Position numbers and translations under genes: made by a program
Notes under the pieces: generated by a model
Told to the model about the DNA's origin: nothing
The model's input: the letters and a program-made list of their open reading frames with translations, nothing else
Database searches by the model: none
From: Bretschneidera sinensis
Taxonomy: Eukaryota > Streptophyta > Magnoliopsida > Brassicales > Akaniaceae
Direction: 5' to 3'
DNA length: 64,000 nt
NCBI GenBank assembly: GCA_023935145.1
Contig: CM043697.1
Span: forward strand, 60,016,001-60,080,000
Shown: positions 5,524 to 58,844 of the stretch, in pieces
Layout: the number at the start of each line of letters is the position of its first letter
Numbering within the stretch: the first letter of the stretch is position 1

Positions 5524-5690
5524 CGTGTGCGCGCTGCGGTGCTGCTGGGGAGCACCTCGGCGCTAGGTATGAGCTGGAATGGGCTTCCTTCTGGACTCCG
5601 CGGTTCTGTTGAGAAGCACCGCGGTGCTGGCTGGTGGGTCATCATATGTATGTTTCTGGGCACCACAGTGCTGCTGAGGAGCACGGCGGT
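5524..5690 (-). repeat. Palindrome-rich block in U3 of Athila-1 LTR
   Basis: The block contains repeated GGTGCT / AGCACC inverted motifs, including a perfect 14-bp palindrome AGCACCGCGGTGCT at 5615-5628. It sits just upstream of the LTR TATA box. Its base composition is much more GC-rich than the flanking sequence. Confidence 0.7.
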
Positions 5691-5957
5691 GCTGGCCTTT
5701 TTGCTGCTAATCTTCATACTTTGCCTCTTACTTCGCCATTCTTCTGCTTCGTCGTGCATGGACTCTTGGTGCTTTTAAACAACGATCGCTTCTTCTCTTC
5801 TTTGGACTCAAAACACCTAAAAATGTACTTGAATATGTTAGTAGTCCAATGATATTACTTAAGAGTTATCAACATACAAGAGTGCAATAAAGACCGAGAA
5901 AAATCATAAAATGCTAACAATTAAACATCTTTGAGGTGCATTTTATAGCTCTTATCA

Positions 5958-6742
5958 CCTGTCAAAGGTTTCTCCATTATCCAAGCCTAGGCAGGCTCTG
6001 AGTTCTTCTTCATTGCTTCCATAGCTTATTTAAAATTATCTTCATGGAATGCCTTGGCAGCCCACCATAAGATATTCCTAAGCATTAGCTCTGGGTTGTT
6101 AGGTATGAAATTATTGTACACATGCTTAAAACAATTCTTATGAAAGGAATGTGGGAAGACTTCAGCTATAGCATTCTTTAAGCTCTACATGAAAGAATGA
6201 TAACTTTATCAAGGCCCAGCTAAGTGGTTACTTTTTGATAAGTACAACACATTGAATAAATTAAAGTAGAAAAAAAAAACTAGCTTTTGTTTCTCAAACA
6301 TAATCGTTAATGTCTCATTTCCCAACCTTTTAAGCTTTCACAGAAGAACTTCTAGCTCTCAATGCGCTATATCCCCACAATTGTAACTGCTATTGGAAAC
6401 AAACCACCATTTCCATCTAAACCAACAGTAGAAAGTAAAACCCCACTATAAGGGCCATTAAGAAAGCATCCATTAAGCCCCATAAAAGGCCTACATCCTT
6501 TCAGGAACCCCACCTTTAATGCATTATAACATACACAAATTCTCTTGAATACTAGAGGTTTTGAAGGACTAATTCTATTATAAACTTCAATCTTCACCAC
6601 ATTGCCAAGATTTTTTTCCACCACTAGTTCACCATACTTTCTCAAAAAACCATATGATTTTCCATGACCCCCTTGCACCTCCTCTATAACCTTCCTCTTA
6701 GCCCTATAAAGTTGTGATTTAGTAGGATCAACCCTCACTATG
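5958..6742 (-). pseudogene. Mutator-like (MULE) transposase, C-terminal fragment
   Basis: Frame 6765-6367 (its first residues lie in the SIRE-M LTR) includes SQLYRAKRKV and the MULE catalytic-domain signature GCRPFMGLNGCFLNGPYSG...VGLDGNGGLFPIA, which surrounds the first catalytic Asp region of MuDR-type transposases. Further down, in broken frames to about 5960, come segments resembling the helical region after the core (FPHSFHKNCFKHVYNNF). The fragment is cut at 6742 by SIRE-M and at 5958 by Athila-1. It continues upstream at 16781-17395 and 29677-30720. Confidence 0.85.
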
Positions 6743-7911
6743 TGTAGACTGAGGTTCCAACCCAAGATAGGGGGGGGGGGGAGTGAATTAGGTTTTTAAA
6801 ACTTTTTACTAATTAATCACAAGTTTATAAAAACAGAAAAACCAACAAGCATATAAACAAGAAATGTGTTGTAAACAAAAGAGTTTAAGGAATAGAAGAT
6901 GCAAACTCAGTTTATAGTGGTTTGACAATATTGGATTCGTTCCGACCCTATGTCCACTCTCTTCAAGGAGCCTCCTTGAAGTAATCCGCTAAGAAACTTA
7001 ATCGTGCAACTTCACGGGTGTTGCACAAACCTTACAATCAATCCCTTCCTCTTGGGAGCAAACCCTTTCCTTTCGGAAGCTAATCCCTTTACAATAAGAG
7101 CTGTAAAGTAAATGTTAGAGAGACAACAATGAAAGCTTATACAACTGAATAATATCTCTCTTTCAAGATAAAGCTTAAAGAATGGCTCAGCACAAATATT
7201 TCAAAGCTTTTGGTGTATCAAAGAGTAAAAACTTGATTGAATGTGTGATCTCTTCTTTTTTAAAATGCTCAATATAGTTGGTTTATATAGTCTTGAAGTA
7301 ATACGCTCGTTCTATACTGATTTGTTATGTTTTAGTGTAAGTTGTTCTGAAATCTCGCATCTCAACGATCATATTTTTTGAACTACCAGTCGACTGGGTT
7401 TTAGTACCAATCGACTGGGTCAAGCTTTGAAAATGTTATTTTTAAGGCTATTGAAGGTGCCAGTCGACTGGGTATGACTTACTAGTTGACTACAAACCTT
7501 CTGCCCAAAGTACCAGTCGACTGGTATGTGTGACCCAGTCGACTGAGGATATACTATCCCATATACCAGTCTTTTGGTATAAGTACCAGTCGACTGGGTT
7601 GCTTAATAACCCAGTTTTCATGTTTTGAAGTGTTTTTAATTTTAAAATGTTTGATTAAAAAGTTATGTTAAAATGCTTTTCAAAATGAGTTATTGGACAA
7701 GCTAAAAACTTGAACAAGTGAGATTTACAACTTGTTTAACTACCTTGAACCTATACTAGATCTTCTGTCTTGAGTTGATGTTTGATTTGGGTTGAGTTCA
7801 TGCACCTTGATCCTTGGCTGAATGCTTTTCTCGCTTAATATACTTAGATAGCACTATTAGTATAATTAAGGTTATATTTTGTCATCATTAAAATATAGGT
7901 AAGGGTCAACA
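6743..7911 (-). repeat. SIRE-M 3' LTR
   Basis: On the minus strand it starts TGTTGACCC at 7911 and ends TCTACA at 6743 (TG...CA). It contains the CCAGTCGACTGG palindrome array (7381-7600), a TATA box (7282-7289) and only two copies of the CTTCC-GAAA-GGAAG hairpin motif (7045-7090), against four in its own 5' LTR. A run of about 12 G at 6769-6781 may be a sequencing homopolymer. Confidence 0.9.
7381..7600 (-). repeat. CCAGTCGACTGG palindrome array, SIRE-M 3' LTR
   Basis: Four exact 12-bp palindromes (the first at 7386-7397) and several one- or two-base variants lie within 220 bp. They sit upstream of the LTR TATA box in the element's orientation. Confidence 0.85.
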
Positions 7912-7925
7912 ATCTCCCCCTTTTT
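7912..7925 (-). other. SIRE-M polypurine tract
   Basis: The minus strand reads AAAAAGGGGGAGAT directly before the 3' LTR start at 7911. This is the expected position and composition of the plus-strand primer, and SIRE-P has an equivalent tract at 27798-27812. Confidence 0.8.
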
Positions 7926-8521: not shown

Positions 8522-9790
8522 TCAGGGAGCAGGAGAGTCAGATCTGTCATGGATAAGATCTCGAAGCTCAGCTAGAGAGCCCTCGGTATGCTCACGGTGC
8601 AATTCAAAGTCATCTCGGAGAGAACGGAGGTCGTGATGCATGCTTTCGATGGTAGAGCTCAAGCTCTGGACTCCGAACTGCATGGTCAGTTGAAAGTTCA
8701 TGATAGCCTGAAAAAGATCGCCATAGCTAGCTTGACCAGCACTCGAGTCACCCATAGGAGGTGCTCAAGCATCCGTATCCATATCAATAGCAGCAACAGC
8801 ATCTGGACTCTCGTCCTTATCATCACTGTTGTCGTCCTCTCCAATTCGAATATGCTTCCCGGCCTTGGAGTAGATGAAGCCGTCTCAAACTGTGCATCCC
8901 ATCTTCTTCAGCTAGGAGACGTTGATGATGTCCTTAAGATCGATGTCTTGAGCCTCAGAGGCAGGGAAAGGCACTCGGAAGTGCTGAAGGATGAGTGTGA
9001 TGAGCATCCCGTAGGGAAGGCATCTAGAGTCACTCGCTTCACCATTAATCATGTTGGCGAGCAATAGGGGGTAGATATTGAAGTGATGCCCAGTTTTAAG
9101 GCACCAAATCAATACAATATCTATCTTAGATAGATACCCCCGACTCTCTAGTCTCAAGTGGATAGTCCAACTCACAATGAGGTTGAACAATTTCGAGTCG
9201 AAGGGCATGTCACTATATGTGTGAAATTTAGTGGGTCGAAACACATAGTTAGGGTCACCCTTAACTATCTGACATACCTTCTCAACCTCGAAGTTGTCTG
9301 GCCATCCATCCAGACTCCATTGGATCCCTCCCACAGGGATCCTCAAAATACTCATCAAGAGGTCAGTAGTGACCTCAAACTCCACACCCATGACTCTGGT
9401 TCTGAACCTCAGAGCCAATGGACTGGGTTTCACCAAGTTCGTATTGAACTGGTGAATCAGTCTAGAGTAAAACTTCTTATGTATCTTGACTAATGGGGTC
9501 AAGTGTATTACCTTGAAGGTAGGTAATACATCGAAGTTACCATGACGAATAGAGTCGAAGTCGACAACTCTACTCATCATGATTTTCTTATGCCTAATGA
9601 TGGAAGTATACCTGTCCTTCGCCGCTAGGCTAGTAAACAACGAATCATCAAGCTCTGTTCTGGGCTTCTTGCTTGATGAGCCCGACACTCCCTTCCCCGG
9701 TGACTCCAGAGCCATGGATTTGGTGGAACTTGGTCTCGTAGGCATATTTGGTCCCCCAACGGTGGTCTTTACCCGGATTCTTTTGGACAT
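8522..9790 (-). pseudogene. SIRE-M accessory (env-position) ORF with plant-transposon domain
   Basis: The start chosen is the ATG at 9790 (MSKRIRV), because SIRE-P has its ATG at the same point (MTDRIRV); an in-frame ATG 20 codons upstream is not shared. The N-terminus is basic and Ser-rich. A globular region follows (about residues 60-280), with VKIHKKFYSRLIHQF, VEFEVTTDLLMSILRIP and LIWCLKTGHHFNIYPLLLAN motifs. It resembles the domain annotated in plants as 'putative plant transposon protein', also seen in the Athila-A accessory ORF. After stops near 8910 and 8767 the frame continues (8755-8522) into a heptad-like C-terminus, probably a coiled coil. In Sireviruses this position is called env-like, but no signal peptide or membrane segment is visible. 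Its function is unknown. Confidence 0.75.
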
Positions 9791-10006: not shown

Positions 10007-10014
10007 TATTTATA
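10007..10014 (-). promoter_or_regulatory. TATA box upstream of the SIRE-M accessory ORF
   Basis: The minus strand reads TATAAATA in CGCAATTCTATAAATAAG, about 217 bp before the accessory ATG and just downstream of a palindrome array. SIRE-P has the same arrangement at 25708-25715. Promoter function is inferred. Confidence 0.5.
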
Positions 10015-10022
10015 GAATTGCG

Positions 10023-10292
10023 ATACCAGTCGACTGGGGTGAGGATGCCAGTCGACTGGGTGCTTTGCAGAGATGAAAAGTTTTGCACACCAGTTAACTG
10101 GATCAAGATACCAGTCGACTGGGTAGTTCATACCAGTCGACTGGGTAGTTCATACTAGTCGACTAGGTAGTTACTTGATTTTCAAAAAATGGCTCCAAAC
10201 AAAGTCTAGTTGACTGGTATAGATTTACCAATCGACTGAGAGATTAGGCAGAGACTTACCAGTCGATTGGGATAGACTTACCAGTCGACTGG
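10023..10292 (-). repeat. Internal CCAGTCGACTGG palindrome array (SIRE-M)
   Basis: Five exact 12-bp palindromes and at least five variants (such as CCAGTTAACTGG and CTAGTCGACTAG) lie between the pol stop and the internal TATA box. Two copies are in a short tandem unit ending TAGTTCAT. The array matches the one in the LTR U3. Confidence 0.88.
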
Positions 10293-15601: not shown

Positions 15602-16780
15602 TGTAGACTGAGGTTCCAACCTAAGAAGGGGGGTGAATTGGGTTTTTAAAAACTTTTTGCTAATTAATCACAATTTTATAAAAACAGATAAACCAACAAG
15701 CATATAAACAAGAAATGTGTTGTAAACAAAAGAGTTTAAGGAATAGAAGATGCAAACTCAGTTTATAGTGGTTCGGCAATATCAGATTCGTTCCGACCCT
15801 ATGTCCACTCTCTTTAAGGAACCTCCTTGAAGTAATCCACTAAGAAACTTAGTCATGCAACTTCACGGGTGTTGCATAAACTTTACAATCAATCCCTTCC
15901 TCTTGGAAGCAAACCTCTTCCTCTCGGAAGCAAACCCCTTCCTTTCGGAAGCTAATCTCTTTCTTTCGAAAGTTAATCCCTTTACAATAAGAGCTGTAAA
16001 GTAAATGGTAGAGAGACAACAATGAAAGCTTATACAACTGAATATGATCTCTCTTTCAAGGTAAAGCTTGAAGAATGGCTCAACACAAATATTTCAAAGC
16101 TCTTTGTGTATCAAAGAGTAAAAACTTGATTGAATGTGTGATCTCTTCTTTTTAAAATGCTCAATAGAGTGGGTTTATATAGCCTTGAAGTAATATGCCC
16201 GTTTTGTACTGATTTACTATGTTTTAGTGTAAGTTGTGCTGAAATCTCGTATCTTTACGGTCATATTTTTTGAACTACTAGTCGACTGGGTCTTAGTATT
16301 GGTTGATTGGGTTAAGCTTTAAAAATGTGATTTTTAAGGCTATTGAAGGTGCCAGTCGACTGGAAACCTTCTGCCCAAAGTACCAATCGACTGGTATGTG
16401 TGACCCAGTCGACTGGGAACATACTGTCCCATATACCAATCTTCTGGTATAAGTACCAGTCGACTGGGTTGCTTAACAACCCAGTTTTCATGTTTTGAAG
16501 TGTTTTTAATTTTAAAATGTTTGATTAAAAAGTTATGTTAAAATGATTTTCAAAAAGAGCCATTGGACAAGCTAAATACCTGAACAAGTGAGATTTACAA
16601 CTTGTTGAACTACCTTGAACCTATACTAGATCGTCTGTCTTGAGTTGATGTTTGATTCGGGTTGAGTTCATGCACCTTGATCCTTGGCTGAATGCTTTTC
16701 TCGCTTAATACACTTAGATAGCACTGTTAGGATAATTAAGGTTGTGTTTGCCATCATTAAAATATAGGTGAGGGTTAACA
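15602..16780 (-). repeat. SIRE-M 5' LTR
   Basis: This 1179-bp LTR starts TGTTAACCC at 16780 and ends TCTACA at 15602 on the minus strand. It holds three exact CCAGTCGACTGG palindromes plus variants (16275-16480), a TATA box (16174-16181) and four copies of the CTTCC-loop-GGAAG hairpin unit (15897-15985). The identity of boundaries with the 3' LTR supports the call. Confidence 0.9.
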
Positions 16781-17395
16781 ATATGAATTCATGGCTTTTT
16801 TCATCAAGTCATAACTCATTGTAGGATTAGCCCTAAATTGGGCACCAAGTTTCCTTGTAATCAATGGGTGATCTGCATTATCATTCTTGGTCACCCTAGC
16901 AGTTGTGTTCATTATTTAGAGTTTTGACGATGAAGGTTATACCATAAGGTGTCACAGATATATATATCCTCCATAGGCAACCCTCAGCTTTGCATTTAGC
17001 ACTCACCTTTTTAGGATCATTCTTTTTCCTCATGAAAGAATTCCCACCTTTCACCCCATAATCTTTTTATTTTTTTTTGAAACTAATCACATCTAGGAAC
17101 AAATGTCTCACCTCAAATTCTATAGTTCCATCTTCTTTTGGCTTAAAAAAATTCCCATGAATCTTATTTGTGATATTAAAGGTCCTTAACATCCTTTGTT
17201 GACTATACTTAAAGTCAAAAAAATCACTTGCATAATAATAAGATGCATCTGACTCTATATTACTCGATTAATTATAAGAACCATCATCCTGCCCTTCATT
17301 TTCAACATCATGTCTATCAAAATCATCCTCATCATTAGAACCTTTATTAATGCCCTCTAACCATTCCCCATCTTCAGCATAAAAAAATTCATATG
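16781..17395 (-). pseudogene. MULE transposase, middle fragment
   Basis: Reading leftward from 17395, the translation opens with YEFFYAEDGEWLEGI, passes the MuDR DNA-binding-like region (RHLFLDVISFKK) and a zinc-ligand-like segment (KCKAEGCLWRIYIS), and ends at ALMKKAMNSY-type residues at the SIRE-M boundary. A stop and a frameshift occur near 16900. The fragment connects codon-for-codon to 29677 upstream across element D, and to 6742 downstream across SIRE-M with a small frame change. Confidence 0.85.
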
Positions 17396-18500: not shown

Positions 18501-19204
18501 TTTATGCATATGATCAATAACATGGAAGTCAGCATACATTAAACCATTCAATTCAACTATCTAGCTCTTTCTCAAAATTATTATTTTTATCATATTTATT
18601 AAATTGTCTCCTCATATATTATATAAATTTTTCAATCATATTTCAGAAATTTCATATAACTTAACATATTTTTCATTAATCCATCATTTTTAAAATATAA
18701 ATTCTTATAATCCCTAATCAATCAATCAATTATCATACTTAGCAGAAAGTACATCATTAAATCATTATAATTCAATCATTTATTAAAATATCATAAATTC
18801 ATATTTTTATTGGTCTTGATTACTAAAAATAAATCTAACTCACCACGTAGCATTTAAAGCTACCCGTGGATCACTTCCTTGTCTTTTCTGCTCCTTTAAG
18901 CAATTTCACCCTGTTGACCCTCACCTATATTTTAATGATGACAAAACACAACTCTTATCATCCTAACGATGCTATCTAAGTGTATTAAGCAATAAAAGCA
19001 TTTAACCAAGGATCAAAGTGCAAGAACTCAACCCAAGTAAAGACAGAAGAACTAGTATAGGTCTAAGGTATTATAAACAAGTTATAAGTCTCACTTGTGA
19101 AGGTAAAAAGCTTGTCTTATGGCTCATTTGAAAAGCATTTTAAACAAAACCTTTTAAACAAATGTTTTAAAGTTAAAAACTCTTCAAAACATAAAAACTG
19201 GGTT

Positions 19205-19430
19205 GTTAAGCAACTCAGTCGACTGGGTACTTATACCAGTCTTCTGGTATAAGGGACAGTATGTCCCTAGTCGAATGGATCAAAGATATCAGTCGACTGG
19301 TACTTTGGACAGAAGTTTCCCAATCGACTGGTAAGTCATACCCAGTCGACTGGTACCTTCAACAGCCTTAAAAATGTGATTTTTAAGAATGACCCAATCG
19401 ATTGGTACTAAGACTCAATCGACTGGTAGT
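19205..19430 (+). repeat. CCAGTCGACTGG palindrome array, SIRE-P 5' LTR
   Basis: One exact palindrome and about seven variants such as TCAGTCGACTGG and CCAATCGACTGG lie about 90-320 bp upstream of the TATA box. Confidence 0.8.
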
Positions 19431-19521
19431 TCAAAAAATATATCATTAGGACACGAGAATTCAGCATAACTTGCACAAATTTGAACCAAATCAGTTCAAA
19501 ATGGCCATATAACATTAAGAC

Positions 19522-19529
19522 TATATAAA
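19522..19529 (+). promoter_or_regulatory. TATA box of SIRE-P 5' LTR
   Basis: TATATAAA is present at the same relative position in all four SIRE LTRs of the window (also 28455-28462, 16174-16181 and 7282-7289). Confidence 0.65.
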
Positions 19530-20096
19530 CCCACTCTATTAAGTATTTCAAATGAGAGGATATACATTCAAACAAGTTTTTACTCATTGATACTCAAAAG
19601 CTTTGAAAATATATTGCAGAGCCATTCTTCAAGCTTTACCAAGAAAGAGAGATATTATTTAGTTGTATAAGCTTCCATTGTTGTCTCTCTACTGTTTTCT
19701 TTACAGTATTTATTGTAAAGGGATTTACTTCCGAAATAAATGGATTTTGCTTCCACAAGGAAGGGGTTTTGCTTCCAAAAGGAAGGGGTTTGCTTCCGAG
19801 AGGAAAGGATTGTAAGGTTTGTGCAACACCCTTGAAGTTGCACGACTAAGTTTTTTAGTGGATTACTTCAAGGAGGTTCCTTGAAGAGAGTGGACGTAGG
19901 GTCGGAATGAATCCGATATTGCCGAACCACTATAAACTGAGTTTGCATCCTCTATTCCTTAAACTCTTTATTTACAGCACACATTACTTATTTATATGTT
20001 TGTTGTGTAATCAGTTTTATAAACTTATGTTTAATCTACGAAAGTTTTTAAAACCTAATTCACCCCCCCTCTTGGGTTGAAACCTCAGTCTACAAT

Positions 20097-25399: not shown

Positions 25400-25700
25400 C
25401 TTAAGGGTCGAGTCGACTGGTACGTCTATCCCAGTCGACTGGAAAGTCTCTGCCTATTTTCTCAGTCAATTGGTAAGTCAATACCAGTCGACTAGTTCAT
25501 CTAAACTTTGTTTGGAGCCAATTTTTTTTGAAATTCCGTTATCACCCTAGTTGACTGGTATAACCTACCCAGTCGACTAGTATATGTTTGCTAGTTTATC
25601 CAGTCGACTGGTACCTAGATTCAATTGACTGGTATGCAAAATCCTTCATCTCTGCAAAGTACCCAGTCGATTGGTATACTCACCCCAGTCGACTGGTATC
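25400..25700 (+). repeat. Internal CCAGTCGACTGG palindrome array (SIRE-P)
   Basis: Three exact 12-bp palindromes and at least six variants lie between the pol stop and the internal TATA box. The arrangement and spacing match SIRE-M 10023-10292. Confidence 0.88.
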
Positions 25701-25707
25701 GTGATTC

Positions 25708-25715
25708 TATAAATA
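25708..25715 (+). promoter_or_regulatory. Internal TATA box before SIRE-P accessory ORF
   Basis: TATAAATA sits just past the palindrome array and about 195 bp before the accessory ATG. A pyrimidine-rich leader follows. The layout mirrors the LTR promoter and is conserved in SIRE-M. Promoter use is inferred. Confidence 0.5.
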
Positions 25716-25909: not shown

Positions 25910-27129
25910 ATGACCGATAGAATCCGAGTTAAATAAATGCGCCTATAAGGCCAAGGTCCACCAAATCCACAATTTCGAATTCAAGCGGGAAGGGCGTGGC
26001 GGGCTCATCCAGCAAGAAGCGCAGAACAGAGTTTGACGACACTCTGTTCTCCAGCCCAGCGGCAAAGGCAAGGTATAATTCCGTTATCCGCCTTAAGAAA
26101 ATCATAATAGGTAGAGTTGTCGACTTTGACTCTATTCGTCATGGTAACTTTGATATATTGCCTGCCTTTGAGGCTATTAACTTGACCCTACTGGTCAAGA
26201 TTCATGAGAAGTACTACCTTAGACTGATTCACCAGTTCTATGCGAACTTGGTGAAACCTAGTCCACTGGCTCTGAGGTTCAGAACCAGTGTCATGGGTGT
26301 GGATTTTGAGGTCAATACTGACCTCTTGATGAGTATTTTAAGGATCCCTGTGAGAGGGATCCAATGGAGTCTAGATGGATGACCAAAAAATTTCGAGGTT
26401 GAGGAGGCGTGTCAGATAGTTAGGGGCGACCCTAACTATGTGTTCAGACCCACTACATTTCACACATGTAGTGACATGGCCCTAGACTCGAAATTGTTCA
26501 ACTTCATAGTGAGTTGGACCATCCACCCAAGATTAAAGAATCGAGGTTATCTATCTAAGATAGATACCGTATTGATTTGGTGCCTTAAAACTGGGCACCA
26601 TTTCAATATATACCCCCTGCTGCTTACCAATATGATTAATGACGAAGCGAGTGACTCTGGATGTCTTCCCTACGGGATGCTCATCACTCTCATACTCCAT
26701 CATTTCTGAATGCCTCTCCCTGCCTCTGAAGCTCAGGATATCGGGCCAAAGGACATTATCAATCTCTCATCACTGAAGAAGATAGGATGCACGGTCCGCG
26801 ACGGCTTCATCAACTCCAAGGCCGGGAAGCACATTCGAATTGGAGAGGATGATAGTAGTGATGATGAGGATGCTGTTGTTGCTGCTGATATGGATACGGA
26901 TGCTAGAGCACCTCCTATGGGTGACTCGAGTGCTGGTCAGGCTGGGTACAACGATCTATTTCAGGCTATCACGAGCCTCTAGCTGACCATGCAGTCTAGA
27001 TTCCAAACTTTGAGCTCCTCCATTGAGACCCTCCGGGATGACTTCGAGCTGTACTGAGAGCACACTGAGAGTTCCCTGGCTGAGATTTAGGATCTCATTC
27101 ATGACGGCTCAGACTCTCCCACTGCATAA
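25910..27129 (+). pseudogene. SIRE-P accessory (env-position) ORF
   Basis: The ATG at 25910 (MTDRIRV) is followed by a stop seven codons later and a frameshift. The main body is readable from 25996 (SSSKKRRTEFDD) through 26382, 26440-26709 and 26710-26982, and the last codons end at the TAA at 27127. It has the same domain as in SIRE-M: VKIHEKYYLRLIHQF, VDFEVNTDLLMSILRIP, LIWCLKTGHHFNIYP, then an acidic linker (GEDDSSDDED) and a coiled-coil-like tail. No transmembrane or signal sequence is visible. Its role is unknown; in Sireviruses the position is termed env-like. Confidence 0.75.
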
Positions 27130-27812: not shown

Positions 27813-28114
27813 TGTTGATCCTCACTTATATTTTAATGATGACAAAACATAACTCTTATCATACTAATGATGCTATCTAAGTGTATTAAGCAATAAGAGC
27901 ATTCAACCAAGGATTAAAGTACAAGAACTCAACACAAGTGAAGATAGAAGAACTAGTATAGGTCTAAGGCATTATAAACAAGTTGTAAGTCTCACTTGTG
28001 AAGGTAAAAAGCTTTTCTTATGGCTCATTTGAAAATCATTTTAAAAAGAACCTTTTAAACAAACGTTTTAAAGTTAAAAACTCTTCAAAACATGAAAACT
28101 GGGTTGTTAAGCAA

Positions 28115-28365
28115 CCCAGTCGGCTGGGTACTTATACTAGTCTTTTGGTATAAGGGATAGTATATCCCCAGTCGACTGGATCAAACATACCAGTCAACTG
28201 GTACTTTGGACAGAAGTTTTTCAGTCGACTGGTAATTTGGGCATAAGGTTTCCAGTCGACTGGTAAGTCATACCCAGTCGACTGGTACTTTCAACAGCCT
28301 TAAAAATATTATTTTTAAGAATAACCCGGTCGACTGGTTCTAAGACCCAGTCGACTGGTAGTTCA
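28115..28365 (+). repeat. CCAGTCGACTGG palindrome array, SIRE-P 3' LTR
   Basis: Four exact copies and four variants occur, including CCAGTCGGCTGG and CCGGTCGACTGG. The array ends about 90 bp upstream of the TATA box. Confidence 0.87.
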
Positions 28366-32801: not shown

Positions 32802-32809
32802 TATAAAAG
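32802..32809 (+). promoter_or_regulatory. TATA box of element E
   Basis: TATAAAAG in the context GGGTATAAAAGAGAGG lies about 180 bp upstream of a possible ATG at 32987. Confidence 0.5.
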
Positions 32810-42608: not shown

Positions 42609-43864
42609 TGATTAGAGCCATAAAATGCATCTCAACAATGCTTACTTGTTAGCATTTTAGGGTTGATCTCCGTCTTAATTGCACTTTTATACGTTAATAA
42701 CTCTAAAGTGATGTTCTTAGATCATTAACTTATTTTGGTGCATTTTCAGGTATTTTGTGTTTAAAAGAGATGGAAAAGCTATCATTGCGTAAAGCTCAAA
42801 GATTCCATGCACATCTGAGTGAATGAGTGCTTCCGAAAGGACAAACGAAGAGTTTATGAGCAAAAAGCCCTTCAATGGAAGCCTAGGCGCCTAAAGAGGA
42901 GAGGGATGGCGCCCAAAAAAAATAAGAGTCAGGGCTACGGCACCCAAAAGAGAGGGCCGCGGTGCCCAGCACCTCCACAACCAAAGCTGAAGGCAAGGCA
43001 GCGGCACCCAAAAAGGAGAGTCGCGGCGCGCACACGATGTTTTGTCTCTGAGTCAGAACTTAATTAGGGTTTTTATGATAGATTAAACCCTAAAACACCC
43101 TTGGACCCTTTGTACTATAAATAGATCACTTAGGGTTTGATATTCAATACATGGATTAGAGGGTCAAAGGTCGAGAAACTCAAGCATGAGCCCTATGGCA
43201 GATTAACCTCAAAGCAAGGCAAAGGGATAAATCCTTAGGTGTAGTTGTTCTTATTTTCTTTTCTTGATTTAGTTGTAGTTTGGATTTATTATCATTAAAC
43301 ATTGTTATGATTTACTTTTTAATCTAATTAGATGAGTTCCCTTTAATATAGTGATTGCATATTTCTCCCCCATATAAGTCTAATCATGCTCTTCTTATAT
43401 GATGTTGTTGAGGTGTGATTGAGTTCGGTAGATTTCTCTTATAGATTTGTCCATTACTGCGGTATTGTCATTATGATATATTGTCATTTCTTGATAATCT
43501 ATAAGTTAGCTAATGTGTGCTTGAAAGTAAAAAGTATTTCATAACAATTACATTAGGGTTTATATATGTGCTTGATTGAATATTTGTTGATTGCTTGTTT
43601 GGGATGTGAAACTTGCAATCGAGATAAAAACAACTGAATTGAGATTGGAATAAGGCAACGAACCTAGGGAGGATTCCCGGAACCTTGTTTTTCTCCATCA
43701 TATTTACACAATGATTTCACACTACTTCAAATCAGATTCTTTCCTTTGACTTTTATCGTTTCGTATTAAGGTTTACATCTTCTCTTGTGGATCGCTTGTC
43801 TCCCTGTGGAATCGATACCCCAAAGCTGTGCTACAACTACCGCGTTATACTTTAGGCATAACCA
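42609..43864 (+). repeat. Element B 5' LTR
   Basis: The U3 contains GGCGCC / GGCACC / GGTGCC motifs (42893-43030), each six bases and (near-)palindromic. TATAAATA at 43116-43123 follows. The LTR matches the 3' copy throughout, including a leader with GGTTTACATCTTCTCTTG. Confidence 0.9.
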
Positions 43865-45774: not shown

Positions 45775-46434
45775 GAGCACCTGGCTGAAAACGTAAAACT
45801 TAGCGCTCATGGGAGGCACCCCACAGCATATTTTTTCACTTTTATTGTTTTCACATTTCTTTTTCTTGTTTATTATTCGTATTTTTTTTTGTTTTCCAGT
45901 ATTAATTTAGTATTTCTTTTTCAGGGATAAATATATGAAGCAGTTCAAATGGTGGAGCACAATTTTAAGCTTCTGTGCACCTTTGGCTACAAAGGGAGTT
46001 TCCTTTACTCGTTCTTTTAGATTGAGGTCAATGCAATTTTTAAGTTGCGGGTGGAGGAAATGCATCTCTTTGTTTCCATATTCTTTATTTCCATACATTT
46101 TTTTTTCTTTTTCCATTGAACTGTTTGGTGTCATTTTCCATTCTTGTTTGTTTTTAGCATGCTTTATGTTAAGCTTTAGAGTTAATTCACATGTCAATGA
46201 TATGAACCTAATTGAGATAGCATATAGCATTTAGAAGAAGTTAAATCTTGCTTCGGTTTGAGAATAATTTAAGTGTCAATCTTAATTTGGTTTGAGACTC
46301 TAGTTTGCGGTAAGATTGTATGATTAGTCTAAAGCATCTAGAGAAGTTTTATGTGATTGCTTTGTGAATATTTTTATGGTCTCAACAAGCTCTAGAACTT
46401 ATTTGATAATCACTTGAGGTGAATTCCTAGAATG
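45775..46434 (+). other. Element B 3' noncoding segment, left of Athila-A
   Basis: The segment opens with the GCTCATGGGAGGCACCCCA box typical of Athila sequence downstream of coding regions. The rest is T-rich. It continues at 58850 after the Athila-A insertion. Nothing else was found. Confidence 0.6.
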
Positions 46435-46965
46435 TGATAACTCTATGATAAGAGCCATAAAATGCATTATAATTGTACTTATTTGTTAGCACTTTAGGGT
46501 TGATTTAGGTCTTAATTGCATTTTTATTCATTAACAACTCTAAAGTGGTATTTTTGGAGCATTAACTTATTTCGGTGCATTTTTCAAGTATCTTGATCTA
46601 AAAGAGATGGAAGAGCTATCATCATTTTAAACACGAAGCTCCATTGAACACTCAAGCAAAAGAATGGTCGTGGAAGAGCCAAGATGAAGAGAAACTAAGA
46701 AAGGAGTTTTCACTAAGTTGTTGGAGTTGCCATACGAATCAACCATTTTTACAAATTAAACTGTATTGATGTAAGAAGAACCAGGAAGTGTGCCATATAT
46801 TCTCAGAAAGATCTGGAAGTCTACTTTCTGGAGGATTTTATGGTTCATTAAAATCATTTTTCTAGAGAAAGTTATGGTGATTTTAGCGAACAGAGGTCAT
46901 ACCTCCTGGTTCAGCATCAGCCGCACCTCACGGCACCAAAATGCACAGAGAGGACAGAAACTCAA

Positions 46966-47135
46966 GGCTGCAGTGCCAGGATGTTGGTGCTGCAGCGCTG
47001 GTAGCTTACACAAAGAAGGATTTGGACAGAAATTTGGCGCTGCAGCGCCAGAAAGTTGGAGCTGCAGCGCCAGAATTAGGGTTTCTTTATGTCTTGGCGT
47101 TGCAGCGCTGGGATGTTGGCGCTGCAGCGCCAGCC
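46966..47135 (+). repeat. GGCGCTGCAGCGCC palindrome block, Athila-A 5' LTR
   Basis: Seven related sites carry GCTGCAGCGCC or close variants. Two are perfect 14-bp palindromes. The block lies just upstream of the TATA-like box and is repeated at 57634-57803 in the 3' LTR. Confidence 0.88.
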
Positions 47136-47150
47136 CGCGAATTTTGAATG

Positions 47151-47159
47151 TTATAAATT
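47151..47159 (+). promoter_or_regulatory. TATA-like box of Athila-A LTR
   Basis: TTATAAATT follows the palindrome block by about 20 bp; the 3' LTR copy is at 57819. This is a moderate match to a TATA box. Confidence 0.45.
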
Positions 47160-48182
47160 GAAACCCTAGCTGAACAAGAAGGGAGTCTGGAAAAGAGGTG
47201 GAAAAGAGAAGAAAGAAAACAAAATTTGGAGGAGAGGAGACACGAAAGGAGGCTTGGAGACACTCCGGGAGGCTACGCATCAAGCTTTTAATCATTCTTC
47301 TCCGGTTTTGTATTCTTCTATTCTATCTATGTTGATGTTTTATAATATGAACATGGGTTGTTTGAACATGATTATGGAGTAGATATTTTTGTGTTAAGGA
47401 TAGATGGATCCTAAACCTTTATCTTGAGTTGTTGTTTGGACAAGTGGAATTTAATGTGTTTTTCAAAGAGTGTGTTTTATTGTTCTTAATGCTTTTTATT
47501 ATTTTGATTCCTTCTTTGCACGGGGTGATGTGTCGAATAGAGAAGCCATGCTCTTATGAATGGTTGAACTAATAAATATGATATTGGATTTTTATGTATG
47601 CAAAGGCCAGGGTAAAACATGCCATAAATGGAATAGGAGTAACCGAATAGGGATTTTAGGAAGTTCATGTGGTCCGTTTAAATCGTAACCGAATAGGGAG
47701 ATTTAACTGAAAGGAATCCAAAAACACTTAATGCTTCTCAATTTGAGTTAATCTAGAATAGACCTGGAATACAGATATTCAAAGTTAATGATTCTTGAGA
47801 TTGTGGTTAGACCCGGAATATGTATAACCAATTTATTGGGGATTCTACCATCTTGGAAAACATATTAAACGATTCTTGTCCATTCGAAACTCTTATCAAT
47901 TATGGTTTAGGTGAAGTCGAGTCCTTAGCACGTTAGTTCATAAGAGTTTTCATTCCAAAGGTTGCTAATCTTCCATTATTTACTATTGCATTTTGTTTTT
48001 CCTTAGTTAATTGTTAGTAAATCTTTCCCCTACAATTATTCGTTTGCTCAAATAACAGTAAAAGTTAAGTAATAATTTTTATAGTATTTGATCAGTCCTT
48101 GTTGGGAACGATATTCACTCATCATTTTATTACTTGAACGATTAGTGCACTTGCTAGTGTCAATTTCATCGCATCAAGTTTT

Positions 48183-53523: not shown

Positions 53524-54570
53524 ATCGAAAAGTCAAGCTAAAGACTATAAATTAGAACTACCATTTTGCGTCTTATTTTTTTTTTAATTTTATTTTTCAT
53601 GCTTTTTGAAATTATTTGGGGTGTCCAAATTTTTGTTTTTTTTTTGTTTAATTTAATTGTTATTTCAATTTTTATAGCCTTACGACGAGTATTTGTGATG
53701 TATTTTTTAGCTCTACGTGGAGCCGGGACAGAAATTCAGCGCTGCGGCGCCAGAAAATTGGAGCTGCAGCGCCAAGGCCCTCCATTTCACGCCATCAGCC
53801 CAGAAATCTGGTGCTGCAGCCTCACAAACTCAGCGCTGCAGTGCCAGGACCTGTTCGTTCAACACAATAAAAATTCCAGCACAGCAATTCAACGCTGCAG
53901 CGCCAGAAAATTGGAGCTGCAGTGCCAGATCGTACAAAGGAGATTAAATGCCCAACTCTCCAACAGTTAGGGCAGTCCAAATATTAAAATTCCAGCTGCT
54001 CTCCCTCTCCAAAACACAAAAATATCACTTTTCCTTCCCATAGAAACACCCAAGCAAGAGTTTTTCTGCAATTTCAACCATGGATTCCTTCTATTCTCCA
54101 GGAGAATCAATCTTCTCGAGTGATTTTGGGTGCTATTGAGTTTTTTTTTTATCAAGTAAGATTTCTCCACTTTGAGACCCTCAAACTTCATATTTTTAAG
54201 TGCAATCACTTGAGTTGTTTATGGGTAGATGATAATACATGGTGAGTTGATGAAAAATTAAGGAAAGGATGAATGGATAAGTTGTATGTTCACAAGTTTC
54301 TGCTGAAACTTTTTCATGGGACTGTGCGTTGGGAGAGAAGGGTACTGTAGCTGGTACTGTAGCTGAAAATTTTTTGACGTTAATGAGTTGAATTTGCTAT
54401 CTATTATGCTGGGTTATTCAAGACTAAATTGATTGAAGTAATTGCCCAACTTGGATTGAAATTTCTACTGCAATTTTTATTTGGGAATTGGTGTGTGAAA
54501 GTGGGTGTTGCTCTTGGTTACTTTCTGCTGTTTGGAGTGTAATTATTTAAAGCACAAAAGTCTTAATTAA
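53524..54570 (+). other. Athila-A pol-to-accessory-ORF spacer
   Basis: A T-rich start is followed by a palindrome block at 53725-53935 and then about 600 bp of noncoding sequence up to the accessory ATG. No clear TATA box was found, in contrast to SIRE. Confidence 0.6.
53725..53935 (+). repeat. Internal GCTGCAGCGCCAG palindrome block (Athila-A)
   Basis: Seven GCTGC(A/G)G(C/T)GCC-type sites occur, arranged in pairs joined by AGAAAATTGGA, the same paired unit as in the LTR block. It lies between pol and the accessory ORF, as in SIRE elements. Confidence 0.85.
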
Positions 54571-55644
54571 ATGGCTCCTCCTAAATGCGCGAGACCTAGC
54601 TCCACCAGTTACAATTTAGAGCTTTTTGTCTCAAAGGAAGCAGAACAGAGGTTTGAGCGTTCTCAACTCAAGAAAGTCCCAATTCCTGAACGAGGATTTA
54701 ATATCACCAAGGGACACTTCCTCCTCATTCACAGGATCATCACTGCTCATAAATGGGAACAATTCTGTGCAACACCAGAAGCTGTAATTATTCAAGTTGT
54801 GCGTGAATTTTATGCAAATGCCGCAGAGCACACGAATCTGAAGGTAAAGGTTAGAGGGAAATTAGTGGCGTTCGACAGAGGCACAATCAACAAATTGCTC
54901 AACACCCCCACCATCCCAATGGATGAGTACAGTGCGTATGCCAGCGCACCTGACCTCGATGAAGTACTCCGGGTTCTTTGCAAAGTTGAGACACAATGGA
55001 AATTGTCCGGTGATGAGCGGACTTCATTTCCATCAAGTGCAATGGATAGGATAGCAAAAGCTTGGCATTACTTTATAGGCGCTCGTTTGCTTTCGACAAC
55101 TCATTTAAGTGATGTCACAAGAGAGAGAGCAATCCTTCTATTCACCATCTACCAAGGATTGAGTATTGATGTGGGACGCATTATCCAGCACAACATTCTA
55201 TACAGCGCAAATTCGATCAGTGCAGGGTTATATTTTCCATCTTTGATAACAGCACTTTGTGGATTGTGTGGTGTTACCTGGACTGCAGGGGAGCAAATCA
55301 AACAACCAATGCATCCGCTGGACCTAAAGACTATCTATTGGATCACGGACATAGAAGAAGCACCGAGCCCAGGCACCTCTTCCTCGCAACCTCCTCCAGC
55401 ACGCCAACAACGGAATATATCACTTTCTAATCGTCTAACAGTTGTTGAGATGGAGCTTCATGAGCTTCGACAATTGAGTCAGCAGCAGGCCTCCTACGTC
55501 GCAGGTTGTTCTCAAACCAATGATTAGATGATGAGGATTTTTGCCACTCATTTAGGCATCGACACACAGCAGCTACCTCAACTACCACCATATCCCGGTC
55601 ATAGTAGTGATCCGGAGGATGAGGACATTGACAAAGACGATTGA
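54571..55644 (+). pseudogene. Athila-A accessory ORF with plant-transposon domain (one internal stop)
   Basis: The ATG at 54571 opens 318 codons ending at TAG (55525-55527); the same frame then continues 38 codons to TGA at 55642 with a Pro-rich and strongly acidic tail (DPEDEDIDKDD). Residues about 40-230 form a domain resembling 'putative plant transposon protein', with VKVRGKLVAFDRGTINKLL, AMDRIAKAWHYFIGARLL, ILLFTIYQGLSIDVGRII and FPSLITALCGLCGV. A Gln/Leu-rich coiled coil (LTVVEMELHELRQLSQQQ) follows. No signal peptide or membrane segment is seen, so the traditional env-like label is positional only. The same domain organisation occurs in the SIRE accessory ORFs. Its function is unknown. 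Confidence 0.82.
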
Positions 55645-57090
55645 TTCAGCCTCTGACTAATCAGGGGAGTTCTCTTCTCTTACTTTATAATTCAAATTCT
55701 ATACATTGCGGACAATGTATTATTTAAGTTTGGGGGTGGGAACTTTATCTGAATGTGTGCACTGCTTATGTTTCTAGTTATTTTTCTATTTGTGTTTTCT
55801 GAGTGCTTTCTGTTGATTGATTTTGATTTTGCCAATGATGAGAAATAGATTGACTTGATTATAGCCATTGAAAATTTGAAAAATGTTGCGTTTGTCTGTG
55901 TGCTTGAATTTGTTGTTTGGATTTATTTTGCATCTAACTCTTTGAACACAATGAGCACTTACACCTAAGCACTTTGTTGTCTTGCTGTTTCAGAGAGCGT
56001 TTATGTGAGCAGTGTAGTCTTGTGATCTCTTGGACTCTAGAACTTGTTTGAAGACCACTCGAGGCGAAATCCTAGGTAGTACAGTACCAAAGAAAGGATC
56101 CAGGCCATGTTTGGAAAGTTTGAGCCATTTTAGCCAACCCTTGATATGTGACTATCCTTAGTGTTCCCCTTTTGAGCTTGGATACATATTGTTTTGTCAC
56201 CCAATCATATATCCTATTTCCCTTTCAAATATATATATATATAAAAAAAAAAATTCTCCACCTTTCACCTTTAAGCACATTGATTAATAAATGGACTATT
56301 CTGTTAAGTGGTGATAGAGGATTGAGCAAGAGGAAGCGGTCTTCACTTGGCTATGATAAGTATTACATATTTCCCATCGAGAGTGACCAAAGGAAAGATC
56401 GAAGTTAAAAAGGTTTACCACAAGAACTATTTGATCAAGTTGTATTATGCCCATCACAGGAAGCCGGCAAAGTTGTGTTTGATCGTCGTGTACATGCTAT
56501 GCTATAGTTTCAGTAATGCACACAGAAACAAAGACTAGTGCTACTATAGTACAAGCATACGAAAAAAAAAAGATGTGACAATAGCAAAAGTATTGGAAGT
56601 ATTCCATGATAACTGAGGGAAAGTTCGAAATTAAATTTTTATTGGTCGATGTGCTTAAGGTGATGTGAGCATCAAATCAATCTTTTACCATACCTTAACC
56701 TTAGCCAAAGTTATAAGCTGAATAAAGTCCTGGTGATCTCGGGTATTGTCATGGCTTACATTAGTGGAGAGTGGTGTGAAAAGTAAGCTTATGGACTTTG
56801 AAAGAGTGACATTATCCTACTTGCTGGCATAAACCGATCAGAGTGGCGAGACGATTAAGTTTATAAAGGTGTTACACACACACACGTTTGAAGAATTTGA
56901 TGTAAGATAAGGCTAGCAATAAATTTGAAATTCTAGACATTGGCAGCATTTGGAAAGTTTTTTTGTGCGTTATAATTTTTATACAATCTTTGAGGCATGC
57001 TATATCAAATCTAATCAAACCATCTCGCACTCTTAGGATGTGTGTGCATAGAATTTTGTTCTAGTTTGCTCGAGGACTAGCAAAAACATA
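55645..57090 (+). other. Athila-A 3' noncoding region
   Basis: The region includes AAGTTTGGGGGTGGGAA near 55729, a purine-rich box usual downstream of Athila coding sequence, and sequence homologous to element B around its insertion site (56030-56085 matches 46385-46430). No gene was found. Confidence 0.6.
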
Positions 57091-57102
57091 AGTTTAGGGG
57101 TG
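57091..57102 (+). other. Athila-A polypurine tract
   Basis: AGTTTAGGGGTG directly precedes the 3' LTR start TGATAACTCT. Element B has the similar TAGTTAGGGGTTG at 59851-59863. Confidence 0.75.
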
Positions 57103-58844
57103 TGATAACTCTGTGATAAGAGCCATAAAATGCATTATAATTGTACTTATTTGTTAGCACTTTAGGGTTGATTTAGGTCTTAATTGCATTTTTATTCATT
57201 AACAACTCTAAAGTGGTATTTTTGGAGCATTAACTTATTTCGGTGCATTTTTCGGGTATCTTGATCTAAAACAGATGGAAGAGCTATCATCATTTTAAAC
57301 ACGAAGCTCCATTGAACACTCAAGTAAAAGAATGGTCGTGGAAGAGCCAAGATGAAGAGAAACTAAGAAAGGAGTTTTCACTAAGTTGTTGGAGTTGTCA
57401 TACGAATCAACCATCTTTACAAATTAAACTGTATTGATGTAGGAAGAACCAGGAAGTGTGCCACATATGCCCAGAAAGATCTGGAAGTCTAATTTCTGGA
57501 GGATTTTACGGTTCATTAAAATCATTTTTTTAGAGAAAGTTATGGCGATTTTAGCGGACAGAGGTCATACCTCCTGGTTCAGCATCAGCCGCACCTCACA
57601 GCACCAAAATGCACAGAGAGGACAGAAACTCAAGGCTGCAGCGCCAGGATGTTGGCACTGCAGTGCTGGTAGCTTACACAAAGAAGGATTTGGACAGAAA
57701 TTTGGCGCTGCAGCGCCAGAAAGTTGGAGCTGCAGCGCCAGAATTAGGGTTTCTTTATATCTTGGCGCTGCAGCGCTGGGATGTTGGCGCTGCAGCGCCA
57801 GCCCGCGAATTTTGAATGTTATAAATTGAAACCGTAGCTGAACAAGAAGGGAATCTGGAAAAGAGGCGGAAAAGAGAAGAAAGAAAACAGAATTTGAAGG
57901 AGATGAGACACGAAAGGAGGCTTGGAGACACTCCGGGAGGCTACGCATCAAGCTTTTAATCATTCTTATCCGGTTTTGTATTCTTCTATTCTATCTATGT
58001 TGATGTTTTATAATATGAACATGGGTTGTTTGAACATGATTATAGAGTAGATATTTTTGTGTTAAGGATAGATGGATCCTAAACCTTTATCTTGAGTTGT
58101 TGTTTGGACAAGTGGAATTTAATGTGTTTTTCAAAGAGTGTGTTTTATTGTTCTTAATGCTTTTTATTATTTTGATTCCTTCTTTGGGCGTGGTGATGTG
58201 TCAAATAGAGAAGCCATGCTCTTATGAATGGTTGAACTAATAAATATGATATTGGATTTTTATGTATGCAAAGGCCAGGGTAAAACATGCCATGAATGGA
58301 ATAGGAGTAACCGAATAGGGATTCTAGGAAGTTCATGTGGTCCGTTTAAATCGTAACCGAATAGGGAGATTTAACTGAAAGGAATCCAAAAACACTTAAT
58401 GCTTCTCAATTTGAGTTAATCTAGAATAGACCTGGAATACGGATATTCGAAGTTAATGATTCTTGAGATTGTGGTTAGACCCGGAATATGGATAACCAAT
58501 TTATTGGGGATTCTACCATCTTGGAAAACATATTAAACGAAACTTGTCCATTCGAAACTCTTATCAATTATGGTTTAGGTGAAGTCGAGTCCTTAGCACG
58601 TTAGTTCATAAGAGTTTTCATTCCAAAATTTGCTAATCTTCCATTATTTACTATTGCGTTTTGTTTTTCCTTAGTTAATTGTTAGTAAATCTTTCCCCTA
58701 CAATTATTCGTTTGCTCAAATAACAGTAAAAGTTGAGTCATAATTTTTGTAGTATTTGATCAGTCCTCGTTGGGAACGATATTCACTCATCATTTTATTA
58801 CTTGAACGATTAGTGCACTTGCTAGTGTCAATTTCATCGCATCA
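57103..58844 (+). repeat. Athila-A 3' LTR
   Basis: At 1742 bp it is the same length as the 5' LTR, with the same palindrome block (57634-57803) and TATA-like box (57819). It ends GCATCA before GAATA. Differences from the 5' copy are mostly single-base transitions. Confidence 0.93.

Follow-up and report, generated by a model that had tools for sequence, protein, structure and literature searches.

Several LTR retrotransposons within one 64-kb stretch of the Bretschneidera sinensis genome carry arrays of short inverted repeats in their LTRs, and the question that this locus raises is what such arrays do. A first-pass annotation of the window (the whole 64,000-bp stretch analysed here) had read them as convergence of unrelated families on one promoter architecture, with binding sites for dimeric factors among the possible roles.

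Identity of the elements

SIRE-1 and SIRE-2 possess a copia-type gag (PF14223, E=8.8e-29 and 2.3e-27, respectively) and, in the reverse transcriptase piece scanned from SIRE-2 alone, a copia-type enzyme (PF07727, E=1.1e-39). The Sirevirus primer-binding site TATCAGAGC follows the 5′ LTR exactly in SIRE-2 (20100) and with one mismatch, as TATTAGAGC, in SIRE-1. Two exact copies of the Sirevirus polypurine tract AGGGGGAG precede the 3′ LTR of SIRE-1 (8122 and 7921, minus strand); no exact copy is present in SIRE-2, where the junction reads differently. A further Sirevirus trait found in both elements is the presence of the repeated motif (RM) upstream of the LTR TATA box and of the ORF in the ENV position.

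In Athila-A the Pfam domains run PF03732, PF00078, PF17917, PF00665 and then the PF20167 ORF. This order fits a predicted gypsy element, with gag and RT–RNaseH before integrase and a third ORF after pol; the name Athila is taken over from the first-pass annotation and the class is assigned from domain order. The LTRs of Athila-A, Athila-1 and Athila-B align partly at 70–83%, yet their array motifs differ.

Palindrome arrays in the LTRs and upstream of the third ORF

The perfect 12-bp palindrome previously noted in SIRE, CCAGTCGACTGG, is indeed present, in 20 exact copies. It had been described as an LTR feature, which holds for 12 of the 20, but the remaining eight are internal, between pol and ORF3: five in 10026–10292 (SIRE-1) and three in 25431–25696 (SIRE-2). 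Similarly, the perfect 14-bp palindrome of Athila-A, GGCGCTGCAGCGCC, occurs four times, every time in an Athila-A LTR as had been claimed and each time within a 16-bp palindrome, but this element too has an internal array, made of imperfect copies (Table 1). The motif is private to each family and common to the LTR array and the internal array in both SIRE and Athila-A, and in Athila-A the two arrays have a 49-bp unit in common (92%). Single array copies are in themselves dyads, the form usual among the binding sites of dimers. The palindrome attributed to Athila-1, AGCACCGCGGTGCT, exists, but as one perfect copy (5615) rather than a perfect array; six copies are found if as many as 4 of the 14 positions may mismatch. 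The Athila-B sites, absent from the earlier list, were first spotted by eye.

Table 1. Positions of LTRs, arrays, TATA-like words and third ORFs in the window.
Feature	Position	Strand	Details	TATA-like word
Athila-1 LTR array	5530..5693	minus	three pairs at 21 bp, motif AGCACCGCGGTGCT	CTATAAATA at 5444
SIRE-1 3′ LTR	6743..7913	minus	U3 palindrome array 7386-7597	CTATATAAA at 7290
SIRE-1 ORF3	8912..9790	minus	292 aa from the frame's first ATG; PF20167 E=6.5e-11 for 8912-9772	
TATA-like word, 10 bp past SIRE-1 internal array	10007..10015	minus		CTATAAATA
SIRE-1 internal array, pol-ORF3 linker	10026..10292	minus	10 copies; gaps 22,31,22,51,22,22,21,42,22	
SIRE-1 5′ LTR	15602..16782	minus	U3 palindrome array 16278-16467	CTATATAAA at 16182
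Element D 30-bp tandem	18346-18496			
SIRE-2 5′ LTR	18912..20094	plus	array 19215-19426	CTATATAAA at 19521
SIRE-2 internal array, pol-ORF3 linker	25409..25696	plus	10 copies; gaps 22,31,22,63,22,31,21,42,22	
TATA-like word, 10 bp past SIRE-2 internal array	25707..25715	plus		CTATAAATA
SIRE-2 ORF3 region, interrupted	25933..26706	plus	two frame pieces, searched separately: PF20167 E=0.0045, 2.7e-5	
SIRE-2 3′ LTR	27813..29047	plus	array 28116-28358	CTATATAAA at 28454
Element E 69-bp tandem	32318..32636	plus	partial dyad	TATAAAAG at 32802
Athila-B 5′ LTR array	42886..43030	plus	six degenerate GGCGCC-type sites; gaps 22,31,22,42,22	CTATAAATA at 43115
Athila-A 5′ LTR	46433..48176	plus	array 46964-47131, three 22-bp pairs	TTATAAATTG at 47151
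Athila-A internal array, pol-ORF3 linker	53738..53926	plus	three 22-bp pairs, 6 imperfect copies	
Athila-A ORF3	54571..55527	plus	318 aa; PF20167 E=3.3e-43	
Athila-A 3′ LTR	57101..58844	plus	array 57632-57799, three 22-bp pairs	TTATAAATTG at 57819
Athila-B 3′ LTR array	60140..60284	plus	six matching positions, more decayed	CTATAAATA at 60369

Counting degenerate copies (at most two mismatches for SIRE, three for Athila-A), we found 5–8 in each of the six SIRE and Athila-A LTRs and 6–10 in each of the three linkers, against shuffle means of 0.00–0.04; the gag-pol regions of SIRE-1, SIRE-2 and Athila-A have none, and each SIRE ORF3 region has one stray copy. Perfect 12-bp palindromes with at least five G/C beat all 200 shuffles in the U3 of all six SIRE and Athila-A LTRs, while the same test revealed no excess in the three gag-pol regions of these elements. 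By this measure the U3 excess was borne out for SIRE and Athila-A and was marginal in Athila-1 (9 of 200 shuffles reach the observed value); palindromes in the Athila-B U3, in E and in D are not above chance. Between the SIRE-1 and SIRE-2 linkers, identity is 91% in palindromes, 80% in spacers and 86% in the remainder; in the LTRs, palindromes are no better kept than the rest, with 83% in palindromes, 82% outside and 86% in spacers in one comparison and 81%, 85% and 81% in the other.

TATA-like words lie downstream of the array in all four SIRE LTRs, both Athila-A LTRs, Athila-1, both Athila-B LTRs and E, in agreement with the placement first described for SIRE, Athila and E. Both SIRE internal arrays are likewise followed by a TATA-like box, CTATAAATA, a word with eight occurrences in the whole window, both strands counted; in SIRE-1 the first ORF3 ATG is about 225 bp farther on. 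The Athila-A internal array lies about 640 bp ahead of ORF3 and is not followed by a good TATA box.

The tandems of E and D, both putative LTRs, were present as reported, but an unbroken 7-bp dyad survives in only two of about 4.7 units in E and two of five in D. Downstream of the E array and its TATA-like word, a frame piece (33327–33575) has a weak, below-cutoff match to PF04195 (E=0.00013). We considered E and D as part of the same architecture and rejected them: they are tandem repeats of different geometry.

Spacing and helical phasing of the repeats

A motif-blind search of the 64 kb for near-palindrome pairs with dyads 19–24 bp apart returned 19 pairs; all 19 are spaced at 21 or 22 bp and all are located in U3 or a linker. 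The SIRE arrays have R=0.94–0.98 at a best period of 10.5–10.6 bp (range tried, 10.0–11.0), with p≤0.0062 in six of six arrays at both mismatch settings, though these six amount to about two independent cases (LTR and linker) because they are homologous. All 43 SIRE gaps match an integer multiple of the 10.55-bp turn to within 2 bp, as does every gap in Athila-B and Athila-1, and a motif-free lag analysis is concordant for SIRE and Athila-B and weaker for Athila-1. Athila-A arrays have no 10.5-bp phasing beyond the 22-bp pair (R=0.45), and in the lag analysis 12 bp carries more power. Array spacings besides 22 bp include 31, 42, 52, 63 and 74 bp; TRF reports units of 53, 31 and 22 bp.

Convergence on one promoter architecture, as originally proposed, is supported for copia SIRE and gypsy Athila by the 21–22 bp pairing and falls for D and E on geometry. 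The paired spacing, together with whole-turn phasing in all but Athila-A, supports convergence more strongly than the first-pass annotation could see.

The third ORFs and PF20167

SIRE-1 ORF3 matches PF20167 (Transposase_32) over positions 4–177 of 177 at 42.9 bits, just under the cutoff of 45. A database search with this ORF returned nothing at E≤0.001, BLASTP against P0025 and P0026 gave nothing convincing, and hhalign assigned a probability of 13%. An HMM built from alignment A1 detected the SIRE-2 N-terminal piece at 5.9e-5 and SIRE-1 at 0.08, the latter beaten by 1 of 1000 shuffles. Searching with profile A2 (E≤1) yielded 21 proteins, 20 of which carry PF20167; ten are from named plants, P0022 is labelled E. 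coli, and no close relative of SIRE ORF3 was among them. The third ORFs of copia SIRE and gypsy Athila are probably distant homologues, and for this reason calling the families unrelated needs a caveat. Their motifs do differ, and the arrays extend beyond the LTRs.

DUF1985, the VANC domain, was not among the Pfam hits of Athila-A ORF3, its 12 homologues or SIRE-1 ORF3, with HMMER being a method that misses very distant kin. Scans of IMG/VR returned no relatives of Athila-A ORF3, of one SIRE-2 RT piece, of one Athila-A pol piece or of the paired-palindrome pattern.

Comparison with known systems

Palindromic motifs were already known in Sireviruses from other plants, as the first-pass annotation had noted: in its available text, Bousios et al. 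(2010; PMC2829016) publishes arrays in the LTRs and ahead of ENV, family-specific and placed upstream of the LTR TATA box as they are here. By that account RM is present in 13 of 21 Sireviruses and lacking in eight, ENV-bearing ones included; among the 13, pre-ENV copies occur in nine of nine ENV-bearing and none of four ENV-less elements, and an internal promoter is supported, not conclusively identified. The Vitis Sirevirus motif CGGTCGACCG and the CAGTCGACTG of this window are a single position apart in each arm. The core reported in 2010 is CGG-CCG, Tnd-1 excepted, whereas the SIRE-1 and SIRE-2 palindromes have CAG-CTG in its place; and RM was termed Sirevirus-specific from a copia-only set, whereas gypsy Athila also has arrays in this window. 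In the available portions of that paper the words 'spacing' and 'helical' are confined to the reference list.

The VANC/VANDAL anti-silencing system (Hosaka et al., 2017; PMC5735166, in its available parts) likewise combines an element protein with family-specific motif arrays in non-coding regions, and related families there have switched motif, just as Athila-A, Athila-1 and Athila-B differ in theirs here. Anti-silencing of the VANC type means that the protein binds its element's motif and strips methylation from it. In contrast to the elements described here, VANDAL is a DNA transposon, its motif YAGTATTAY is non-palindromic, VANC carries DUF1985, of which ORF3 has no Pfam match, and binding was shown, where binding to the present arrays is putative. 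Accessory ORFs such as Grande gene23 (Vicient and Casacuberta, 2020; PMC7264820) also lie between pol and the 3′ LTR, with their own promoter and a nuclear product, but the Grande gene is antisense where ORF3 is sense, and the accessible text describes no array shared between LTR and interior. As far as its available text goes, PMC6911290 concerns the insertion of LTR retrotransposons into palindromic targets. In the literature searched, mostly open-access, we found no report of helical spacing, Athila pre-ORF3 arrays or the shared ORF; the Arabidopsis Athila paper (PMC2410132) contains neither 'palindrom' nor 'promoter'.

A proposed two-promoter model and its alternatives

The family-specific arrays, mostly spaced by whole turns, stand both at the principal promoter and ahead of an additional gene. 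This suggests docking by a regulatory protein that works as a pair, perhaps one that the elements encode. Among the roles originally offered, binding sites for dimeric factors is the reading that fits best, the sites being putative. We consider it reasonably probable that the arrays are clusters of binding sites for a regulator that acts as a dimer, and that they serve two promoters in each element. Molecules of such a regulator would load next to each other along the same helical face, with pairs two helical turns apart; the array-served LTR promoter would make genomic RNA, the array-served internal promoter would make a distinct transcript carrying the third ORF, and the binder could be either the ORF3 protein or a factor of the host. 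Protein binding, promoter activity and the ORF3 mRNA are all what we infer from this arrangement. In foamy viruses, the LTR and internal promoters are both driven by the element-encoded Tas; two promoters under one element-encoded regulator make a likeness that is analogy only, ORF3 binding being putative here. A bolder version, which we hold tentatively and think doubtful, is that ORF3 (PF20167) is a nuclear, dimeric regulator that recognises the phased palindromes of its element, in the LTR as well as in the promoter of ORF3, and activates or protects no family but its own; the protein family and the circuit would then be common to copia and gypsy elements, with palindrome and ORF3 changing together in each lineage, as a password.

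Expression of ORF3 need not involve a promoter at the internal array if an envelope-like ORF3 is expressed through splicing of genomic RNA. The distance from array to ORF3 in Athila-A leaves room for an intron, and splice acceptors for ENV have been predicted in Athila and Bagy2 and stop-codon suppression reported in SIRE1 (PMC2829016, available text). We judge this unlikely: splicing leaves the TATA-like box and the shared array unexplained, a sunflower Athila protein bearing PF20167 is predicted to be nuclear (PMC11728184, available text), and neither of the two window ORF3s scanned by simple hydropathy shows a strongly hydrophobic segment as a candidate transmembrane span (best 19-residue mean 1.54 in Athila-A and 1.16 in SIRE-1; 2.30 in homologue P0003). 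Less probable still is that the arrays act as sources of RNA or siRNA, paired palindromes of the genomic RNA, in the 3′ LTR U3 and the linker, forming hairpins for use by host or element and the DNA phasing being incidental. Palindromes in maize Sirevirus LTRs are described as hotspots of sRNA mapping (PMC5311732, available text), palindromes diverge faster after insertion than other LTR sequence, chiefly by transitions, and the RNA folds far better than shuffled sequence does (z −8.6 for the SIRE-1 linker, −7.4 for the Athila-A LTR). A hairpin accounts for the 22-bp pair, however, and not for the 31, 42, 52, 63 and 74-bp spacings; a loopless dyad alone makes a poor hairpin, and placement ahead of TATA boxes is promoter-like. 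An equally improbable account is purely mutational: a short palindromic unit would have spread by gene conversion and tandem duplication, with methylation-driven decay, leaving spacing that is inherited and not selected. Tandem duplication can copy spacings, the two Athila-A arrays have a unit in common, a 31-bp unit stands in tandem in the SIRE-2 3′ LTR, and C>T or G>A changes make up 20 of the 21 mismatches between linker palindromes and their consensus. Against it, gap lengths of 22, 31 and 42 bp recur in copia SIRE and gypsy Athila-B despite unrelated motifs, where the two SIRE linkers disagree in a gap they do so by 12 and 9 bp, each near one turn, and the arrays are found solely at U3 and ahead of ORF3.

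For the third ORF of Sirevirus and Athila elements, 'envelope' is a guess based on position. Were the self-binding version of the dimeric-regulator model true, the 'envelope-like' gene of such plant elements would be a self-activator. A private motif at the LTR and before the third ORF, paired at two turns in copia and gypsy elements alike, makes for a concrete hypothesis, that a cooperative dimeric factor controls both promoters, and the model gives a route to recognising similar circuits in any plant genome.

Palindrome arrays in the LTRs and upstream of ORF3

Self-comparison revealed the window to be a stack of plant LTR retrotransposons, with Athila-A sitting between the two Athila-B LTRs. 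Pfam searches identified copia gag in SIRE-1 and SIRE-2 and, for SIRE-2, also copia RT; Athila-A has gypsy gag-RT-RNaseH-integrase. The SIRE and Athila names are those of the first-pass annotation and do not derive from an RT tree. The LTRs of Athila-A, Athila-1 and Athila-B are partly alignable (70-83%).

Elements and features in the window (elements delimited by self-comparison)
Feature	Position	Strand	Remarks
SIRE-1	LTRs 6743-7913 and 15602-16782	minus	
SIRE-2	LTRs 18912-20094 and 27813-29047	plus	
Athila-A	LTRs 46433-48176 and 57101-58844	plus	LTRs 97% identical
Athila-B	LTRs 42609-43864 and 59864-61118		
Athila-1	left edge of window	minus	truncated
Athila-A internal array	53738-53926		between pol and ORF3
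Athila-A ORF3	54571-55527		
CTATAAAT word	53545		
SIRE R/U5 tandem repeat	28653-28766, 15891-15982, also 19720-19805		21-22-nt unit
Element E	32318-33575		69-bp array; TATAAAAG at 32802
Repeats flanking E	32108-32226 and 34560-34679		120 bp, 85%
CACCTGGACGTCCAGGTG	29505-29522		isolated 18-bp perfect palindrome just outside SIRE-2
ATAGGTCATGACCTAT	4710-4725		16-bp palindrome within Athila-1 internal region

Every palindrome quoted in the first-pass annotation is present in the window sequence. The SIRE palindromes had been placed in the LTRs, which is true of only part of them: of the 20 exact copies, 8 lie inside the elements, in the stretch from the end of pol to the third ORF (ORF3) that we call the linker. 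Athila-A likewise has an internal array. One motif is common to the LTR and linker of the same element, and motifs differ between families. With up to two mismatches allowed, the four SIRE LTRs hold 5, 6, 8 and 8 copies of the SIRE motif and the two linkers 10 and 8; each of the two ORF3 regions has one, and gag-pol and the sequence downstream of ORF3 have none. With up to three allowed, the Athila-A LTRs hold 5 and 6 copies of the Athila-A motif and the linker 6, and the motif is absent from gag-pol, UTR, ORF3 and the region after ORF3. Dinucleotide-preserving shuffles of each region (100 per region) predict at most 0.09 occurrences in any region.

In a motif-free test counting perfect 12-bp palindromes that contain 5 or more G/C against 200 shuffles, U3 lay above all 200 shuffles in all six SIRE and Athila-A LTRs; only one of the six R/U5 parts (SIRE-2 3' LTR) held a palindrome of this kind, a single one. 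The Athila-A linker showed an excess for imperfect dyads only (6 vs 1.32; 0/200 shuffles). In the same test Athila-1 was marginal, and no enrichment was seen for Athila-B or for E and D, two further elements with tandem repeats (69-bp and 30-bp).

The Athila-A LTR and linker arrays have in common a 49-bp unit (92%) and a collinear match of 122 bp (66%), so either array is a copy of the other or sequence is exchanged between them. Between SIRE LTR and linker arrays, likeness barely extends beyond the palindromes, the best match being 35 bp at 86%. In both SIREs CTATAAATA starts 10 bp after the end of the internal array. With both strands counted it occurs eight times in the window, and five of these occurrences follow an array: one in each SIRE linker, one in Athila-1 and one in each Athila-B LTR. 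No similar box lies behind the Athila-A linker array; the CTATAAAT word is ~190 bp upstream of that array, not behind it. In element E the array is followed by TATAAAAG and by a frame piece that resembles PF04195 (Transposase_28) weakly, and E is possibly another array-promoter-accessory-ORF unit. The SIRE R/U5 tandem repeat contains GCTTCCGAAAGGAAG, a dyad centred on GAAA; the RNA fold of 28640-28780 has a z of -3.95, with units predicted to nest in one long stem, not in separate GAAA hairpins.

Spacing and helical phase

Over ten arrays, 35 of 69 successive motif distances were 21 or 22 bp; as many as 4 or 5 mismatches were tolerated here, so a few of the sites counted are strays lying outside the arrays. 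When the 64 kb were scanned blind to motif, 97 near-palindromes emerged, among which 19 pairs had dyads 19-24 bp apart; every one of these pairs was at 21 (3) or 22 (16) bp and belonged to a U3 or linker of SIRE or Athila-A. With as many as 3 mismatches tolerated, all 43 gaps between successive copies in the SIRE arrays (20-22, 31, 42, 51-53, 63 and 74 bp) were at most 2 bp off whole 10.55-bp turns. Phase coherence of the spacings, R, was 0.94-0.98 in the six SIRE arrays at the best period within 10.0-11.0 (p 0.0002-0.0062; null of random gaps with a 12-bp minimum); the homology of these arrays reduces them to roughly two independent cases. Athila-1 (gaps 21, 44, 21, 43, 21) gave R=0.97 at 10.7 bp (p=0.0006), and Athila-B (22, 31, 22, 42, 22) R=0.97 at 10.6, given without a p-value; this array was first spotted by eye and afterwards matched by pattern, which makes the case post hoc. 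In motif-free lag analysis, the SIRE arrays reached a cosine power of 0.81-0.90 at 10.6 bp, Athila-B 0.75-0.77 and Athila-1 0.62.

Athila-A is the exception to helical phasing among the arrays. The two sites of a pair are 22 bp apart in 9/9 cases, but the pairs are out of phase with one another at 10.5 bp (R=0.45), with lag power of 0.04-0.17 at 10.6 and 0.49-0.69 at 12.0. In the LTR the gaps are 22, 50, 22, 38, 22 and in the linker 22, 50, 22, 59, 22, a difference of 21 bp.

Divergence of the palindromes

Within the LTR pair of one insertion, palindromes (taken at up to 4 mismatches, which admits a few stray sites) have diverged more than sequence outside the array: identity is 86% vs 94% in SIRE-1, 85% vs 93% in SIRE-2 and 94% vs 97% in Athila-A. 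The differences are mostly transitions (13/15, 13/14 and 5/5, respectively). C>T or G>A accounts for 20 of the 21 mismatches to the consensus in linker palindromes and for 16 of the 25 in SIRE LTR palindromes. The pattern fits cytosine methylation of silenced copies. Between the SIRE-1 and SIRE-2 linkers, palindromes are 91% and spacers 80% conserved; between their LTRs, palindromes are not conserved better than spacers.

The ORF3 protein

Athila-A ORF3 matches PF20167 'Transposase_32' (E=3.3e-43). SIRE-1 ORF3 matches the whole domain (E=6.5e-11; 42.9 bits vs a Pfam cutoff of 45), and the interrupted SIRE-2 ORF3 matches in two pieces (E=0.0045 and 2.7e-5). The SIRE and Athila-A proteins are likely, not proven, homologs, since routes other than Pfam were weaker or negative. 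A Cuscuta protein, P0025, has copia gag (PF14223) and PF20167 within a single gene model. This agrees with PF20167 being carried along by copia elements, although neighbouring genes can be fused in such models. By simple hydropathy, neither of the two ORF3s scanned has a strong membrane segment; a basic stretch, MAPKR, starts 5 of 12 homologs, and a sunflower Athila protein with PF20167 is predicted nuclear in the available text of PMC11728184. The Athila-A ORF3 structure model is confident, and Foldseek returned no solved fold like it. P0022, a PF20167 fragment outside the window that the protein database lists under Escherichia coli (405-bp contig), is perhaps plant contamination.

Relation to known systems and a proposed mechanism

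The arrays are real and more structured than first reported, judging from five elements in one window. The Sirevirus half of the finding is known: the available text of Bousios et al. (2010; PMC2829016) describes such motifs, there called Sirevirus-specific, in 13 of 21 elements, with pre-ENV copies in all nine motif-bearing elements with ENV and none of the four without, the same LTR and pre-ENV layout as in the SIREs here. Those authors offered the pre-ENV motifs as support for an internal promoter, which they did not conclusively identify (PMC2829016). The literature searchable here yielded no report of helical phasing, a gypsy counterpart or a shared ORF3 family.

The dyads are predicted to be bound by dimers, and pairs two turns apart would bring neighbouring dimers into contact. 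Whole-turn spacing over an array suggests a need for every site to lie on one face of the helix, as in cooperative promoter complexes. Because the same array stands at the LTR and before ORF3, one regulator could serve both promoters. The binders may be a set of several different host factors. The alignable Athila-A, Athila-1 and Athila-B LTRs differ in motif and share the pairing, so the motif varies and the pairing is kept. Since this parallels the VANDAL transposons, in which VANC and its targets likewise show motif change (in the available text of PMC5735166), a binder encoded by the elements themselves would be an attractive candidate.
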